From: Myxococcus eversor
Lineage (GTDB): Bacteria > Myxococcota > Myxococcia > Myxococcales > Myxococcaceae
NCBI RefSeq assembly: GCF_010894455.1
Contig: NZ_JAAIXY010000001.1
Location: 186,001 to 250,000, forward strand
DNA length: 64,000 nucleotides
Direction: 5' to 3'
Part shown: one piece after another, positions 36,108 through 43,305 of the stretch
How the letters are laid out: every line of letters starts with the position of its first letter
Numbering within the stretch: the stretch's first letter is position 1
Position numbers and translations under genes: made by a program
The notes under the pieces: model-generated
The model's database searches: none
Told to the model about the DNA's origin: nothing
What the model saw: the letters and a program-made list of their open reading frames with translations, nothing else

Positions 36108-36152
36108 AGCGCGTTGCCATGGGGCGCGGGGCACGATGAAGTGCGACCGCTC

Positions 36153-37946
36153 ATGCGTTCCCCGCGCCCCTTCCTCCTCGCGCTCGTGACTTGTGCCGCC
36201 GCCTGCGCCGGCACCCAGCCCTCCGCGCCCGTCGTCGCGCCTCCCATCTCGCCGGTGCGAATCACGCTGGTGGGCCTCAACGACTTCCACGGGCAGGTGG
36301 AGCCGCACCGCGCGAAGCTCGCGGATGGACGCGTGGTGGAGGAGGGCGGTGCCGCCATGCTCGCCGCGTATGTCGCGCGGCTTCGCGAGGACAATCCCGG
36401 GGGCGTGTTGCTGCTGGATGGCGGCGACCTCTTCCAGGGCACGCTGGCGTCGAACCTCACCGAGGGCGCCATCGTCGTCGACGTGTACAACCACCTGGGC
36501 TTCACGGCGGCGGCCATCGGCAACCATGAGTTCGACTACGGACCCGCGGGGCCCGCGCCCATGGCCGCGGGTTCCGGCGAGGACCCGCTCGGTGCCCTCA
36601 AGGCGCGCGTGAAGCAGGCGCGCTTTCCGCTCCTGTCCGCCAACCTCCGCGACGCGGCGACGGGCAAGTCTCCCTCATGGCTGGGCAACGACGGTACGCA
36701 CATCGTCGTGGTGAAGGGGCTGCGCGTCGGCGTGCTGGGCCTCACCACCGAGTCCACCCCGAGCGTCACCAATCCGGCCAACGTGGACTCGCTGCGCTTC
36801 GCGCCCCTGGCGTCCTCGGCGCTGGAGGCCTCACGCTCCCTGCGCGAGCGCGGCGCGGACGTGGTCGTGGCGGTGGCGCACGCGGGCGGCCAGTGCTCGG
36901 ACCTGCGCAATCCCCGGGACACGTCGAGCTGCGACAAGGGCGACGCGGAGATTCTCGACATGCTGGCCGCGCTGCCCCAGGGCACGCTCGACGCGGTGGT
37001 GGCCGGGCACACGCACCAGACGATGGGCCACTTCTTCGACGGCGTGCCCATCATCGAGACGACGGGACAGGCTCGCTCGCTGGGCGTGGTGGAGCTCTTC
37101 GTCGACCCGGTGAAGCGCCGCGTGGACCCGTCGCTCACTCGCATCCAGGCCGCCGTTCCATTGTGCACCCAGGTGGACGCCGTCCACGGTGACTGTGACG
37201 GACGCCGCCTGCGCGAGCGCGCCGAGGTGAAGCTGTCTCCGTCGGTCTTCCTGGGCACCGCCATGCGGCCGGACGCGGAGGTGACGCGGCTGCTCGCGCC
37301 CACGCTGGCGAAGGTCGACGAGGCCCAGGGCCGAGCCTCGGGCGTGTCCTGCGCGTCACCCCTGGCGCGCGGCTTCACGGAGGAGGGCGCGCTGGGCAAC
37401 GTCATCGCGGACGCGCTGCGCGAGGCGGCCGGCGCGGACGCCGCGGTGATGAACCCCGGGGGCATCCGGGCCGACCTGCCAGGTGGGACGCTGTCCTTCG
37501 GCCACGTCTACCAGGCGCTCCCATTCGACAACACGGTGGCCGTGCTCACGCTCACCGGCGCGGAGCTGCGGCACCTGCTGGAGCTGGCGCATGGCGTGGA
37601 GCGCGGCGCCGTGTTCGCGGTGTCTGGCCTGGAATTGACGCTGGCCCGCTGTCCGGGCCCCGGCCGGTTGCAGGGCGTCACGTTGGAGGGCGGCAAGCCG
37701 CTCGTGCCGGAGCAGCGCTACCGCGTCGCGGTGCCAGACTTCCTCGCACGGGGAGGTGACGGCGTGGACGGCGTGACGCGGCCCCTGCCTCCAGAACGCG
37801 CCGAGCTGTCCCCATTCCGGGGAATGGACCTGCGCGAGGCGCTGATCGCCTACGGCCGCTCCCACGGGGGTGTCCTGCCCGCGCCCGCGCTGGGACGCGT
37901 GCGCTACAGCGGTGTCGCACAGGTGTGTCCCACAGCGTCTCGCTGA
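36153..37946 (+). CDS. periplasmic 5'-nucleotidase / UDP-sugar hydrolase family lipoprotein
   Basis: A 597-residue UshA-like metallophosphatase. The signal peptide ends LALVTCAAAC, so Cys17 is probably lipidated. The catalytic domain has LVGLNDFHGQ, LLDGGDLFQGT, AIGNHEFDYG, VAVAHAGG and VVAGHTHQT, which give the two-metal site. The C-terminal domain has GNVIADALRE, MNPGGIRADL and LPFDNTVAVLTLTGAEL for nucleotide binding. It likely hydrolyses extracellular nucleotides for salvage. ATG 36153 is chosen at the signal peptide. It follows the MYXO-CTERM gene by 45 bp on the same strand. Confidence 0.93.
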   Translation: MRSPRPFLLALVTCAAACAGTQPSAPVVAPPISPVRITLVGLNDFHGQVEPHRAKLADGRVVEEGGAAMLAAYVARLREDNPGGVLLLDGGDLFQGTLASNLTEGAIVVDVYNHLGFTAAAIGNHEFDYGPAGPAPMAAGSGEDPLGALKARVKQARFPLLSANLRDAATGKSPSWLGNDGTHIVVVKGLRVGVLGLTTESTPSVTNPANVDSLRFAPLASSALEASRSLRERGADVVVAVAHAGGQCSDLRNPRDTSSCDKGDAEILDMLAALPQGTLDAVVAGHTHQTMGHFFDGVPIIETTGQARSLGVVELFVDPVKRRVDPSLTRIQAAVPLCTQVDAVHGDCDGRRLRERAEVKLSPSVFLGTAMRPDAEVTRLLAPTLAKVDEAQGRASGVSCASPLARGFTEEGALGNVIADALREAAGADAAVMNPGGIRADLPGGTLSFGHVYQALPFDNTVAVLTLTGAELRHLLELAHGVERGAVFAVSGLELTLARCPGPGRLQGVTLEGGKPLVPEQRYRVAVPDFLARGGDGVDGVTRPLPPERAELSPFRGMDLREALIAYGRSHGGVLPAPALGRVRYSGVAQVCPTASR

Positions 37947-37958
37947 GGGAGCCTGGGC

Positions 37959-38091
37959 TGAAAATTCGACCGCGAGCTGATCCGCCGGCGGTGAAGGGGA
38001 CCGCCAACCCTTGGAAAGATCAGCGGAAACGCTCCAGGGCCGATTTTTCGGCCTGGGATCAGTTTTCAACGGGAGGAAGAGTCCTTACTCT
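37959..38091 (+). promoter_or_regulatory. dyad-rich promoter region with three GATCAG sites
   Basis: A promoter TTTTCA (38063-38068), 17-bp spacer, TACTCT (38086-38091) precedes the zinc-ribbon gene. Upstream, CTGATC (37977-37982), GATCAG (38018-38023) and GATCAG (38057-38062) are spaced 41 and 39 bp apart, the last abutting the -35. Between them are hairpins GGCGGT/ACCGCC (37987-38005), AGCG-GAAA-CGCT (38022-38033) and a 9-bp stem with a TTTT loop (38034-38056). TGAAAA (37959-37964) mirrors the -35. It may be an activator array or a structured RNA at the end of the nucleotidase transcript. Confidence 0.5.
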
Positions 38092-38170
38092 AGGGCTCGC
38101 GAGTGCCCGTGCCGAGGTGGCCCCATCATCAGGGACTGCGTGCGGAGGCCCTCGAGAGCGAGGGACTGAC

Positions 38171-38560
38171 ATGCTCTACAAAGTGACCCCGATGATGCCG
38201 CCGCCGCCGGAGAAGGCGAAGCCGCGTGAGCCGGGGCAGGCCCAGCCACGCAAGCGGCGCAAGTCCGCCGTCTACGACGCGGATGGCCACGAGGTGCTCA
38301 TCTCGTTGATGTGCATCAAGTGTCGCACCCTGAAGCCGTTGGCCCAGTTCGGTCTGCGTAAAATGGCGGACGGCGCCATCCGCAACCAGCCCTGGTGCCG
38401 GACGTGCCGCTCGGGCGCGGGCACCAAGAAACCCAAGGCTGGCAAGGGCGAGACTCCCGCCGCGCCCGCCGAGGCCACGCCGGTGCTCCAGGTCGTCGAG
38501 CGCGCCGCTCCGAAGGCCACCGCTGAAGTCGCCGCGCCCGCCTCGCCCACGCGGGGCTGA
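38171..38560 (+). CDS. small zinc-ribbon-like protein
   Basis: A 129-residue cytoplasmic protein. A basic Pro-rich N-terminus (residues 1-37, with PRKRRKS) precedes a compact Cys4 site CIKCRTLKPLAQFGLR...CRTCRSG at about 52-81, which resembles the zinc knuckle that often precedes HNH nucleases, but no HNH motif follows. The C-terminal 45 residues are Ala/Pro/Lys-rich and disordered. A DNA- or RNA-binding role is likely but unproven. The ribosome site is poor (GAGAGCGAG about 10 nt upstream). It is behind the dyad-rich promoter and converges on the Hsp70 gene 79 bp away. Confidence 0.78.
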   Translation: MLYKVTPMMPPPPEKAKPREPGQAQPRKRRKSAVYDADGHEVLISLMCIKCRTLKPLAQFGLRKMADGAIRNQPWCRTCRSGAGTKKPKAGKGETPAAPAEATPVLQVVERAAPKATAEVAAPASPTRG

Positions 38561-38639: not shown

Positions 38640-41417
38640 TCACGACAGTCGCAAGCCCGCCGGCAGCGTGTCACCGAGCGCACGGGCTTCGTCCGCCGCT
38701 TCCAACGCCACGACTTCGCGCACCATGCGCACCCACGTCTCCGACGCCTGGGCCGCGACGAGCGCTTGCGCCGCGCGCTCCCGCAGGGCCGGGTCCAAGT
38801 CCCGCGTGCGGTCGCCGGTGAGCCTCGCGAGCTGCGCGGCGGCGAAGGGCGCGCCGTCAATCTTCCGCAGATCCATCTCCAGGAGCAGCGTGAGCCACGC
38901 CTCCGCGGTCTCCACGTCCACCACCTTGTGGCCGCTGCCGTAGAGCGGCACGCGCGCGCCCAGTCGTCCCAGGGCCCAGGCCCAGGGGCCGCCGGACTTC
39001 GCCTCCGCCTTCAGCCGCTCGGCCACCCACCGCCCCATCTCCGCCTTGTCGGAGGGCGGCAGGTGCTCCAGTGAGGCAGCCGTGCGCACCATCTCCTCCA
39101 ATCCCTCGGGTTGGATTCCCTTGAGCTTCCCAGGCGGCGGCGTGCCGGGGGGCACCTTCCTCGCGAGGTGCGGCTGCAGGTAGGCGTAGAGCTTCTGCTG
39201 CTGTGCCTCGGTGAGTCCGCCGGCGATGCGGCGCCACATCACCCAGAACTCCGTCCACACCGCCTTGTCCGAGTGGTGCTGCACCAGCGCGTCGAAGAGG
39301 CTGAAGGTCTGCTCCGCGCGCCAGCCGTCCAGCGGGTAGCCGAAGCCCGGGCGCAGGGTGAAGCCCGCGAGGCTGTAGAAGACGCGCTCGTGGTCCTCGC
39401 TGCGGCGGCGTTTGCTGGCGCCCGCGTACAGCGTGCTCCACATCTCTCGCAGCACCGGCACGCGCCACGTGTCGCGAGGCCCCAGCGCCTTCTCCAGCGT
39501 CCGGGACAGCTGCTTCACGTCCTTGGGGCCCAGGGGCAGTGGCTTGTTTCCGTAGACGCGCTCGATGTTGTCCTTCGCCTCGGCGAAGCGCGCGGGCATG
39601 GACTCGGTGACGGTCAGCTCGTGGGAGCCGCCCGTGCCGCGCAGCTCGAACTCCAGACGCCACCGCTCGTCCGCGACGTCGGAGACGCAGTACAGCTCCA
39701 GCGTGCCAATCTCCGTCAGCGCCGCCTGGAGGTGCACCGGGACTTCCGCCACCTTCCCCGACGCGCCCTTGAGCAGCGTGTGGATGGGCGGCAGGGGCTT
39801 CAAGTCCTCCGCCAGCGGCACCAAATCTCCTGGCTTGTCGATGCGGTCGCTCGTCGTCGAGTAGAGCTGGAACTGCACGGGTCGGCCGAGCGTGAGCGTG
39901 AAGGGGCGCTCACCCAGGTCGACCTTCTGGCCCTCCTCGAAGCCTCGGGGGATGAGGCAGAGGGCGGGCTGCTCCGCGCTGTCCGCCGCGCGCTGCAGGC
40001 CCACGTAATACGCGCGCGCCGCGCCACCGCCGATGCGCAGGCCGTGCCCGCGCCGCACCAGGCCGTAGTACGCGGCGCCGCGCGCCACGGCCAGCTCCAG
40101 CGACACGTGGCGCAAGAGGGAGATTTTCGGCGCGTCCGGCCACCAAGCGGACACGGCCTCCACCAGTCGCTCCGAAATCCAGGGCGAGTTGAAGACGCCG
40201 CCGTTGAGGAGGATGGCGTCGGGGCGGGGGAGGGCGCCCTCGAAAGGCGGGGCCTCGCCCAGGGCCGCGAAGCCCGCCGCCGCGTGCTGCGCGAGGAAGG
40301 CGGCCAGGTGGCGTGTCACCGCCGCGTCCTGCACGTACGGCAGGCCCAGCTCCTGGAGCGCCATGCGCGCGGCGCGACGGGGCCGCTCGCCAGGCGGGGT
40401 GCGCGGGAAGAAGCCGTCCATCACCAGCGCGTGGGCCTCCTCTCGCGTCAGCTCGGAGGACAACGTTCCGCCCAAGAGGCGGCTGCCCTCGCCCGCGAGC
40501 GAGACGCCGTACTTCTCTGGAGGCTCCTTGCCCAGCAGTGCTTCCTTCGCGGTGCGCGCGGCTTGAATCGCCTGCGTCCACTGCGTGGCGGACAGGCGGC
40601 GTCCGGCCGCCACGAGCTTCTCCTCGACACGCCGGGCCAGCGCGGCGTCCATGTTGTCGCCACCCAGCATCAGGTGGTCACCCACCGCCAGGCGCCGCAG
40701 CATGGGACCTTCCGGCGACACGCCCGCGTGCACCAGCGTGAAGTCGGTGGTGCCTCCGCCCACGTCCACCACCAGCACCAGCCGGACGTGGGAGAGCGTC
40801 TGCTCCAGGTCCGCGCGGTGGCGCGCGGTGTAGTCGTAGAAGGCGGCCTGGGGCTCCTCGAGCAGGGTGAACTTCTCCAGCCCGGCCTTGCGCGCGGCGC
40901 TCACGGTGAGGGCGCGCGCGGCCTCGTCGAAGGAGGCGGGGACGGTGATGACCACCTCCTGCTTCGACAGGGGGGCGTCCGGATGCGTGTAGTCCCACGC
41001 GCGCGCCAGGTGCGTCAGGAGCAGGGCGCTGGCGTCGACGGGGGACAGCTTCTGGACGTCGGCCGGAGCGCCCCAGGGGAGGATGGGCGCGGAGCGGTCC
41101 ACGCCCGGGTGGCACAGCCAGCTCTTGGCGCTGGCCACCAGTCGTCCCGGAACGCGGGCGCCCTGCCAGCGGGCCAGCTCTCCCACCACCCACGGGCCGC
41201 CGTCGTCACCCCAGGGAAGCTGGAGGGACTCGGTGCTCAGCTCGTGGCCCGCGGGCACGTACACGGTGGAGGGCAGCAGCGCGCGCGGCGCTACCTCCCC
41301 CTGACGGACGAGCTGGGGAACGGGGAAGTCCTCCACGGGCGCGCTCGCGCCCCGAGAGGGGTCCACGGACGCCACCGCGCAGTGGGTGGTACCCAGGTCG
41401 ATGCCGACGATTCGCAT
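38640..41417 (-). CDS. Hsp70-family protein with DUF3731-like C-terminus
   Basis: A 925-residue DnaK-related protein. The ATPase domain has phosphate 1 GIDLGTTHCAVASVD, connect/phosphate 2 LVVDVGGGTTDFTLVHAG and the adenosine-site region AILLNGGVFNS. After about residue 450, a beta-rich substrate-domain-like part (FTLTLGRPVQFQLYS) leads into about 320 helical residues (YGNKPLPLGPKDVKQLSRTLEKALG, ERVFYSLAGFTLRPGFGYPLD) that fit the Hsp70-linked DUF3731 family. No EEVD-type tail. It is the last of three genes (DUF2760, Hsp70, Hsp70) with 25 bp to the previous one and a GGAGG site. Clients and nucleotide-exchange partners are unknown. Confidence 0.9.
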   Translation of the reverse strand: MRIVGIDLGTTHCAVASVDPSRGASAPVEDFPVPQLVRQGEVAPRALLPSTVYVPAGHELSTESLQLPWGDDGGPWVVGELARWQGARVPGRLVASAKSWLCHPGVDRSAPILPWGAPADVQKLSPVDASALLLTHLARAWDYTHPDAPLSKQEVVITVPASFDEAARALTVSAARKAGLEKFTLLEEPQAAFYDYTARHRADLEQTLSHVRLVLVVDVGGGTTDFTLVHAGVSPEGPMLRRLAVGDHLMLGGDNMDAALARRVEEKLVAAGRRLSATQWTQAIQAARTAKEALLGKEPPEKYGVSLAGEGSRLLGGTLSSELTREEAHALVMDGFFPRTPPGERPRRAARMALQELGLPYVQDAAVTRHLAAFLAQHAAAGFAALGEAPPFEGALPRPDAILLNGGVFNSPWISERLVEAVSAWWPDAPKISLLRHVSLELAVARGAAYYGLVRRGHGLRIGGGAARAYYVGLQRAADSAEQPALCLIPRGFEEGQKVDLGERPFTLTLGRPVQFQLYSTTSDRIDKPGDLVPLAEDLKPLPPIHTLLKGASGKVAEVPVHLQAALTEIGTLELYCVSDVADERWRLEFELRGTGGSHELTVTESMPARFAEAKDNIERVYGNKPLPLGPKDVKQLSRTLEKALGPRDTWRVPVLREMWSTLYAGASKRRRSEDHERVFYSLAGFTLRPGFGYPLDGWRAEQTFSLFDALVQHHSDKAVWTEFWVMWRRIAGGLTEAQQQKLYAYLQPHLARKVPPGTPPPGKLKGIQPEGLEEMVRTAASLEHLPPSDKAEMGRWVAERLKAEAKSGGPWAWALGRLGARVPLYGSGHKVVDVETAEAWLTLLLEMDLRKIDGAPFAAAQLARLTGDRTRDLDPALRERAAQALVAAQASETWVRMVREVVALEAADEARALGDTLPAGLRLS

Positions 41418-41442
41418 ACACCTCCGTTTGCCGGCCGGCGTT

Positions 41443-43305
41443 CTACTCCTTCATGCGGACGTTGAGCTCCAGCTTCCAACGTCCCGAGCCACCTTTCTCC
41501 AGGCACCGCAGCTCCAGCGTCCCCACCTCCGTCACCGCGGCCTGCAGGTTGACGGGGGTCAAATCGCCATAGGTCGACGCCTGTCCGGGCATGGTCGTCT
41601 CGATGGGGGCCAGCTCCTCCATCTCCCCCTTGGCCAGCTCGTCCGCCACGTCATCCACCATGACGCCGACCTTGTCGTCGCGCCGCATGGAGGAGGAGAA
41701 GAAGCGGAAGCTGGTGGGCTCGCCGGTGACGAGGCCGAACTCCTGCGGCGGCACATCCGCCTGCGTGCCTTCCTCCATGCCGAAGGGCGCCACGCACAGT
41801 GCCTTCACGGGAGGCTCGAAGCCGGGCACCGCGGGCATCGCCGACTCCACGCCCACGTAGTACGCGCGCGCCGTGCCGCCTCGGATGCGCAGGCCATTGC
41901 CCTGGCGCACCCAGCCGTAATACGCCGCGCCGCGCGCCACCGCGAGGTCCAGGTCCGCGCCCTCCAGCTCCTTCGCCGGCTGGCCCCCGTCCGCCTTCAG
42001 CCACAGGTTGAGCACCTCCATGACGCGCTCCTTGAGAGGGCCCGCCTTGAAGACGCCGCCGTTGAAGAGCACCGCCGTCGGGTGGAGGAAGGACTTGTCG
42101 CCCACGTCCACCGGTGCGTCGTGGCTCGCCGCCAGCGCCTGGGCCTGCCGCGTGAGGAAGGCCGCCAGGTGCCGCGAGACGCCCGGGTCCTGCGCGTAGG
42201 GCAGCGCCATCTGCGCCAGGCCCATGCGCCGCGCGGTGCGGGGCAGCTCCGCCAGGGGCGTCACGGGGAAGAAGCCCTCGGTGAGGACGCGATCCAACTC
42301 CTCGCGTGTCAGCTCCGTGCGCAGCGTGCCGCCGATGAGGGACGAGCCCCGGCCGGGGATGGAGATGGGCACCTTGTCCAGCGAGGTGTCGCCGTACAGC
42401 GTCTCCTTCGCCTGCCGGCAGCCGTAGGTGAGGGCGTTGAACTGCCACGGGTCCAGCTTCTTGCCGTCGGCGGCCAGGCGCTGGTTGAGCGTGTGCGCCA
42501 GCGCCAGGTCCATGTTGTCGCCGCCCAACAGGATGTGGTCGCCCACCGCCACGCGCAGCAGCTCCACCTCGCCGCCGCTGTCGCGCACGGTGATGACGGA
42601 GAAGTCGGACGTGCCGCCGCCCACGTCGACGACGAGGATGACCTCGCCGGGCTTCACCTGCTGCCGGAAGTTCTCCCCCATCGCCTCCAGCCACGCGTAC
42701 AGCGCGGCCTGCGGCTCCTCGAGCAGGGTGAGGTGCTCGATTCCCGCCGCTTTCGCGGCCTCCAGCGTCAGCTCTCGCGCCGCCGCATCGAAGGACGCGG
42801 GGACGGTGACGATGACGTCCTGGGTGGCCAGCGCGTTGCCGGACTCGTCGTCCCCCTGCGCGAAGGTGGAGTCCCACGCCTCCTTGAGGTGGCGCAGGAA
42901 GCGCGCGGACGCGTCCAACGGGGACACGCGCTGCACGTCCTGCGGAGCCTGCCATGGCAGGAGCGCCGAGCGCCGGTCCACGCCGGGGTGGGACAGCCAG
43001 CTCTTGGGTGACGACACCAGCCGGGTGGGGACCTTGGCGCCGTGGGAGCGGGCGAACTCACCGATGATGGAGGAGGCGTCCTTGTTCCACGGCAGCGCCA
43101 GGCTGCCCTGGGGAAATTCCTGGGCGGAGGGCAGGTAGAGGAAGGAGGGCAGGAGCGGGCGCGACTCCAGCGTGCCGGGCGCCGTCAGCTGGGGAATCGG
43201 CAACATCGACTGCGCGCGTCCCCGGGCCTTGCTGTCCTCGAGGTTGAAGTACGACACCGCGGAGTGCGTGGTGCCAAGGTCGATGCCGATGGAATAGCGG
43301 GCCAT
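41443..43305 (-). CDS. Hsp70-family protein, short form
   Basis: A 620-residue DnaK-related protein. GIDLGTTHSAVSYF, ILVVDVGGGTSDFSVITV and AVLFNGGVFKAG mark the actin-like ATPase, and both catalytic loops look intact. From about 470 a beta-sandwich-like part follows and the chain ends VNLQAAVTEVGTLELRCLEKGG...LNVRMKE, with no helical lid and no EEVD. The same beta end (LQAALTEIGTLELYC) occurs in the middle of the next protein, so the two are paralogues and the downstream one carries an extra domain. It is the middle gene of the unit. Confidence 0.9.
   Translation of the reverse strand: MARYSIGIDLGTTHSAVSYFNLEDSKARGRAQSMLPIPQLTAPGTLESRPLLPSFLYLPSAQEFPQGSLALPWNKDASSIIGEFARSHGAKVPTRLVSSPKSWLSHPGVDRRSALLPWQAPQDVQRVSPLDASARFLRHLKEAWDSTFAQGDDESGNALATQDVIVTVPASFDAAARELTLEAAKAAGIEHLTLLEEPQAALYAWLEAMGENFRQQVKPGEVILVVDVGGGTSDFSVITVRDSGGEVELLRVAVGDHILLGGDNMDLALAHTLNQRLAADGKKLDPWQFNALTYGCRQAKETLYGDTSLDKVPISIPGRGSSLIGGTLRTELTREELDRVLTEGFFPVTPLAELPRTARRMGLAQMALPYAQDPGVSRHLAAFLTRQAQALAASHDAPVDVGDKSFLHPTAVLFNGGVFKAGPLKERVMEVLNLWLKADGGQPAKELEGADLDLAVARGAAYYGWVRQGNGLRIRGGTARAYYVGVESAMPAVPGFEPPVKALCVAPFGMEEGTQADVPPQEFGLVTGEPTSFRFFSSSMRRDDKVGVMVDDVADELAKGEMEELAPIETTMPGQASTYGDLTPVNLQAAVTEVGTLELRCLEKGGSGRWKLELNVRMKE

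Follow-up and report, generated by a model that had tools for sequence, protein, structure and literature searches.

Paired palindromic elements upstream of a zinc-ribbon gene in Myxococcus eversor: candidate operators shared with chromosome-maintenance genes of the Myxococcaceae

The region upstream of a small zinc-ribbon-like gene in Myxococcus eversor is, in our reading, the control region of that gene and probably carries two operators, D and U, of one putative dimeric DNA-binding protein. A palindrome found there (Table 1) recurs before many genes for chromosome packing and DNA repair in Myxococcus and its relatives, and thus looks like the docking site of a putative regulator rather than a structured RNA. 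The same symmetric site lies at many promoter regions and is kept at orthologous places, which is the pattern of a regulon. Coordinates refer to the window, by which we mean the whole stretch of 64,000 nucleotides that was analysed. The zinc-ribbon protein had no match in Pfam, NCBIfam or the PDB sequences. A query made of the promoter and the first 150 coding bases matched 90 of the 96 genomes of the family, the distant ones by the coding part only, with one genome (G064) at 98% over the query. A Myxococcus-like zinc-ribbon locus was also seen in a record titled Comamonas sp. KCTC 72670 (BNCN01000001.1, L255), which is probably a mislabelled genome.

Table 1. Features in and around the control region of the zinc-ribbon gene (positions in the window; loci are orthologous zinc-ribbon upstream regions)
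Feature	Position	Strand	Remarks
Upstream gene, ORF	36114..37946	+	presumably 5′-nucleotidase-like
Candidate operator copy U, GGCTGAAAATTCGACC	37956..37971	.	14/16 to GGCCGAWWWWTCGGCC
Site 1, CTGATC	37977..37982	-	NTGATC in 42/42 loci of three genera, 0/18 others at the aligned place
Site 2, GATCAG	38018..38023	+	weakly conserved: 23/42, and 0/18 further loci
Whole D element, model R1	38023..38071 (G000:C36:224023-224071)	.	40.2 bits, E 2.1e-9, best in own genome
Candidate operator copy D, core GGCCGATTTTTCGGCC	38038..38053	.	model match there in 60/60 loci, weak in L049; recurs at other genes
Site 3, GATCAG	38057..38062	+	right flank of D, 3 bp after the D core; 54/60 loci
Probable -35 region, TTTTCAA	38063..38069	+	GTTTNCAA in 60/60 loci; assigned by conservation
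Probable -10, TACTCT	38086..38091	+	TA[CG]TCT in 60/60 loci; 16 bp after TTTCAA
Gene of a small basic protein, 129 aa, two CxxC pairs (zinc-ribbon-like)	38171..38560	+	
Two tandem genes just downstream of the zinc-ribbon gene	38640-43305	-	presumably Hsp70/DnaK-like

Sixty orthologous zinc-ribbon upstream regions were aligned, leaving out ten loci (L063-L072), one without a gene start and nine from distant genera whose upstream regions are not alignable. Over these 60 loci the mean majority identity was highest for site 3 (0.98), followed by 38087-38094 (0.93), the D core and 38063-38071 (0.92 each) and the three bases that separate D from site 3 (0.89). It was lower at site 1 (0.77), at site 2 (0.67) and in the remaining stretches that were measured (0.64-0.74). 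Behind the D core a -35-like GTTTTCAAC follows GATCAG and is itself followed by a TACTCT -10 in a conserved arrangement, the distance from TTTNCAA to TA[CG]TCT being identical in all 60 loci. The promoter of the zinc-ribbon gene probably lies at these positions, a placement drawn from their conservation, and a promoter consensus scan did not recover this -35.

An earlier note on this DNA had drawn attention to three CTGATC/GATCAG sites spaced near four helical turns, the last touching the -35 box and the gaps filled by short hairpins, and had read them as either an activator array or a structured RNA with two exclusive folds. The sites and the hairpins are present as it described them. The starts lie 41 and 39 bp apart, TTTTCAA follows site 3 directly on its 3′ side, and the hairpins are an AGCG/CGCT stem closed by GAAA (38022-38033) and a GGCCGA/TCGGCC stem closed by TTTT (38038-38053). 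The clustering, however, is within chance, since three such sites fell within 80 bp in 16 of 200 simulated 64-kb windows, and when the intergenic stretch was shuffled 2000 times, 337 of the shuffles had some 6-mer three times within 81 bp. GATCAG as such is rare in the window, with 6 occurrences against 32.4 expected from shuffles. The lack of conservation in relatives that was to count against the note applies to site 2 and to the RNA pairing, but not to sites 1 and 3. Site 1 reads CTGATC in 33 of the 42 loci of the window's own genus and two sister genera, and among the remaining 18 loci TGATC or GATCA lies within 15 columns of its aligned place in eight. Site 2 reads GATCAG in only 12 of the 27 loci of its own genus, and the six loci in which site 3 departs from GATCAG have GAGCAG (five) or GAGCGG (one).

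An activator array in the strict sense, in which a protein recognises GATCAG as such at three sites spaced by about four helical turns, agrees with the strong conservation of site 3 and with the fact that sites 1 and 3 are both conserved in three genera, their starts 78-82 bp apart. It is nevertheless unlikely, because site 2 departs from GATCAG in 19 of the 42 loci and in all of the 18 further ones, because the clustering alone could arise by chance, and because copies of the element dispersed elsewhere have the palindrome in common and not GATCAG. DNA regulatory sites are better supported than the structured RNA, yet the conserved units are one or two copies of a palindrome, with site 3 beside D, and not three GATCAG sites. 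The earlier note had not recognised that the 38038-38053 hairpin is part of a dispersed element, nor that a second copy, U, sits at the left edge of the region it described.

The palindrome was characterised with a sequence-only model (R1) of 58 sequences, D itself among them; most of the 58 copies had been selected for their exact core, which makes the invariance of the core within the model a matter of construction. From them a 38-bp two-fold-symmetric consensus, AAnnGCnCCGAGGCCGATTTTTCGGCCTCGGnnnnGnTT, was derived. In 45 deduplicated copies the outer arms follow this consensus with little covariation, which suggests a recognition sequence more than a stem. Against this, arm pairing is in excess at two places, with 29 of 45 against 23.6 in shuffles at dyad offset 4 (reached by 18 of 500 shuffles) and 17 against 12.8 at dyad offset 15 (46 of 500). 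The centre of the element flips strand between genera at one and the same orthologous promoter, from GCCGATTTTTCGGC to GCCGAAAAATCGGC, with T5 replaced by A5 as the exact reverse complement in seven loci of other genera. Such a flip would be harmless for a symmetric DNA site and odd for an RNA loop.

Copy U is perfect in one orthologous locus (L014) and degenerate in the window's own. At a score of at least 13/16 it is found in 33 of the 60 loci, including all 27 of the genus, and in 33 of 33 it lies 82-86 bp upstream of D. Model R1 reports an upstream copy in L014, L049, L052, L053, L055, L058 and L060, more weakly in some others, and gives no upstream-copy match in the window's own locus. 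In the other 27 loci U is absent or unrecognisable; these include all 15 loci of the two sister genera that have a good D, where an A/T-rich GGAAATTT stretch stands in its place.

A search of the M. eversor genome with the whole stretch returned, besides itself, one place, upstream of smc. The shorter GCCGAWWWWTCGGC occurs six times in this genome, four of them with T5. The exact 14-mer GCCGATTTTTCGGC was found in 77 of the 96 genomes of the family (0 of 96 for the sequence read backward as a control) and in 12 of 99 genomes outside it (control 1 of 99). Model R1 found 13 distinct places in the own genome at E<=0.02, D being the best, and in every one of 12 other family genomes it gave 5-18 matches, counting both strands. 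This makes 13 of 13 family genomes searched, against 0 of 14 genomes of other families. Nine copies of the own genome went into the model, as did copies of most of the 12 other genomes, so those copies match by construction. The distant genome G091, without copies in the model, gave 7 matches, at smc among other places though not at the zinc-ribbon promoter, and most of the 40 further loci described below are likewise absent from the model. A distant genus (g26), whose genes were named by the likeness of their first residues, keeps the element at smc (L245), at SNF2 (L250) and at a basic protein of the FKA type (L246). A mobile or REP-like repeat was considered and rejected, given the few copies per genome and the recurrence of the same orthologous loci across genera.

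Gene layouts were obtained with a simple codon-composition gene finder for two sets of loci, which include orthologues and are to that extent not independent. The first comprised 73 loci, 60 of them fetched from among the 14-mer matches listed and chosen to span genera and 13 from the own genome (score threshold 12). The second comprised 40 further loci picked from the model matches by low E-value and new place (threshold 9). The element lies between tandem genes in 39 loci of the first set and 23 of the second, between divergent genes in 33 and 15, between convergent genes in none, and inside a called ORF in one of each (L097 and L251), with one locus of the second set unclassified. For the 113 loci together, which are 112 distinct places as L215 repeats L109, this amounts to 62 tandem, 48 divergent, 0 convergent, 2 inside a called ORF and 1 unclassified.

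The neighbouring genes recognised by Pfam include smc (SMC_N), HU (Bac_DNA_binding), an SNF2 helicase (SNF2), DNA polymerase III alpha or dnaE (DNA_pol3_alpha), Ku, SWIB and ScpA (SMC_ScpA), and also a HEAT-repeat protein, PilM, an FHA/sigma-54 activator and a GAF kinase; ScpA, the FHA activator and the GAF kinase are represented by one locus each. No Pfam match was obtained for a protein rich in lysine and alanine, which we take to be H1-like, or for a protein starting MFDSN. Others are presumably a RecA/ImuA-like protein, a deoxynucleoside kinase and a biotin carboxylase subunit. The neighbours include genes unconnected with the chromosome, namely pilM, the GAF kinase, the FHA activator, the presumed biotin carboxylase and an ORF after bioD, and at one own-genome locus (L161) the element comes after a sigma-factor gene and has no start close downstream. 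At smc the element lies behind a conserved TTGATC-N17-TACTC, while it lies ahead of TTGACA at HU and of TTTACA at SNF2.

Some loci have more than one copy. In the own genome the H1-like locus (C56) has paired copies, of which the second is weak (E 0.04), and two copies lie at the HEAT-protein locus (C47), at 450333 and 450576. At L160, in the gap between an H1-like and a beta-glucosidase gene, and by eye at L100, paired copies, the second weaker, lie upstream of the H1-like gene, a second possible double operator. Four copies (L215, G040:C19:86991-87544) and three (L221, G043:C2:219853-220446), each within about 600 bp, sit between a HEAT-repeat coiled-coil gene and a gene for a Cro/C1-type regulator. 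In L212, L217, L218, L223, L231, L238 and L240 the element stands before a conserved 92-residue ORF starting MADIIDLT, after what we take to be bioD; the own-genome MADIIDLT ORF had no Pfam match. In L117, L119, L121, L155 and L246, from distant genera, it lies upstream of a family of basic proteins of the M-x-FKA type, one member of which was scanned and had no Pfam match.

The presence of a long symmetric dyad at smc, scpA, HU, H1-like and SWIB genes raises the idea of a cruciform or bent-DNA element that is sensed by HU, SMC and H1-like proteins themselves and provides feedback on their own genes. We regard this as rather improbable, since a specific sequence is conserved and not mere symmetry, and since the outer arms show little covariation.

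It is very improbable that the stretch works as a structured RNA, a leader or switch that alternates between two exclusive folds, although its complementary sites invite such a reading and its single-strand fold was better than 200 of 200 shuffles (z -2.70), an excess as expected of dyad-rich DNA. The two folds proposed in the earlier note found no backing in the 60-locus alignment, in which neither shows covariation. The helix of sites 1 and 2 is paired in 80.3% of cells, shuffles giving 80.6%, and that of sites 1 and 3 is nearly invariant, without compensatory change, and is therefore silent on pairing. The TTTT hairpin pairs in 99.6% of cells, without variation, whereas the GAAA hairpin pairs in 60.1%, being unpaired in some 40% of cells, and a GGCGGT hairpin, the only one with changes on both sides of the helix, in 57.4%. 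Taken jointly the three hairpins show a slight excess, their pairing being reached by 12 of 500 shuffles and their covariation score by 38 of 500, a weak signal of a size that related sequences can reach without structure. RNAalifold gave -15.77 kcal/mol, its covariation term being only -0.47, and the compensatory base-pair changes by which a riboswitch or other structured RNA would be recognised were not found for the two folds. Rfam gave no match above the gathering score; a sub-threshold match to Twister-sister lies inside a coding region and was taken as chance. The loop strand flips between genera, as noted above, and the conserved promoter lies downstream of the stretch, which would therefore be outside the transcript of that promoter. 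Least probable of all is a hairpin that serves the upstream gene as intrinsic terminator or insulator, a reading which has in its favour a GC-rich hairpin and some copies just past a stop codon (18 bp in L165; the bioD loci), but a scan of 37800-38300 found no terminator-like site, the combination of a hairpin and a T run at gene ends was not seen, and 48 of the 113 loci lie between divergent genes and none between convergent ones.

We therefore return to D and U as operators of a putative dimeric regulator. Operator D would lie just upstream of the -35 with its centre about 53 bp before the inferred start, a usual place for activation, so that a bound protein could touch RNA polymerase. Operator U would be about eight helical turns above D, which makes cooperative or looped binding of both possible. 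Site 3 would then belong to operator D as its right flank, adjoining the -35. Site 1 may be an additional conserved DNA site in some genera, and site 2 is likely to be largely incidental. Single or paired copies close to the starts of smc, scpA, HU, H1-like, SWIB, Ku, SNF2 and dnaE genes would be bound by this protein too, and about ten more gene groups would be among its targets. As the element stands upstream of the -35 at some genes and just after the -10 at smc, the regulator probably activates some and represses others; at smc, where the site would be in the leader, a blocking action is more likely.

More tentatively, one regulator may set the levels of SMC/ScpA, HU, H1-like, SWIB, Ku, the SNF2 helicase and the replicative polymerase through the 38-bp operator, as a chromosome-maintenance regulon dedicated to the Myxococcaceae, and the regulator could be the zinc-ribbon protein acting on its own double operator. 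The zinc-ribbon protein is present in 93 of 96 genomes of the family and in 22 of 99 others of the phylum, a wider spread than that of the element by the model; as a test of this protein as the regulator the comparison is weak and decides neither way.

Operators and regulons are ordinary as a kind, and several known systems bear comparison. LexA or SOS boxes are palindromic operators at DNA-repair and replication genes; the sequence and the gene set of the present element presumably differ from those of the myxobacterial LexA box. Two-operator promoters with phased sites are known from class I CRP promoters and looped repressors, and by analogy the zinc-ribbon promoter would resemble them in having one operator upstream of the -35 and a second about eight turns away. 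The open-access papers searched yielded no description of the letters of the element or of a myxobacterial smc/nucleoid regulon, so that the element appears to be undescribed and its gene set unusual. CdbA of Myxococcus xanthus is a nucleoid-associated c-di-GMP receptor whose motif is reported to be a direct repeat with a four-bp gap; its 569 ChIP peaks are mostly not intergenic, and none is reported in promoters of known chromosome-organisation genes (PMC7156744). The two have in common that they are DNA sites in myxobacteria, those of CdbA being the sites of a chromosome-organising protein. The present element differs in being an inverted repeat with few copies per genome, in promoter regions of chromosome-organisation genes. 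A CdbA site was rejected on the motif as described there, since the element is two-fold symmetric and not a direct repeat.

Little is known about how bacteria adjust the levels of condensin, nucleoid proteins and enzymes of replication and repair to one another. A family-wide operator common to such genes in the large-genome myxobacteria would give a direct handle on this question, as a single DNA bait ought to capture the regulator and a single motif gives the list of its targets. Such an operator would moreover link a strongly conserved, uncharacterised zinc-ribbon protein to the maintenance of the chromosome.
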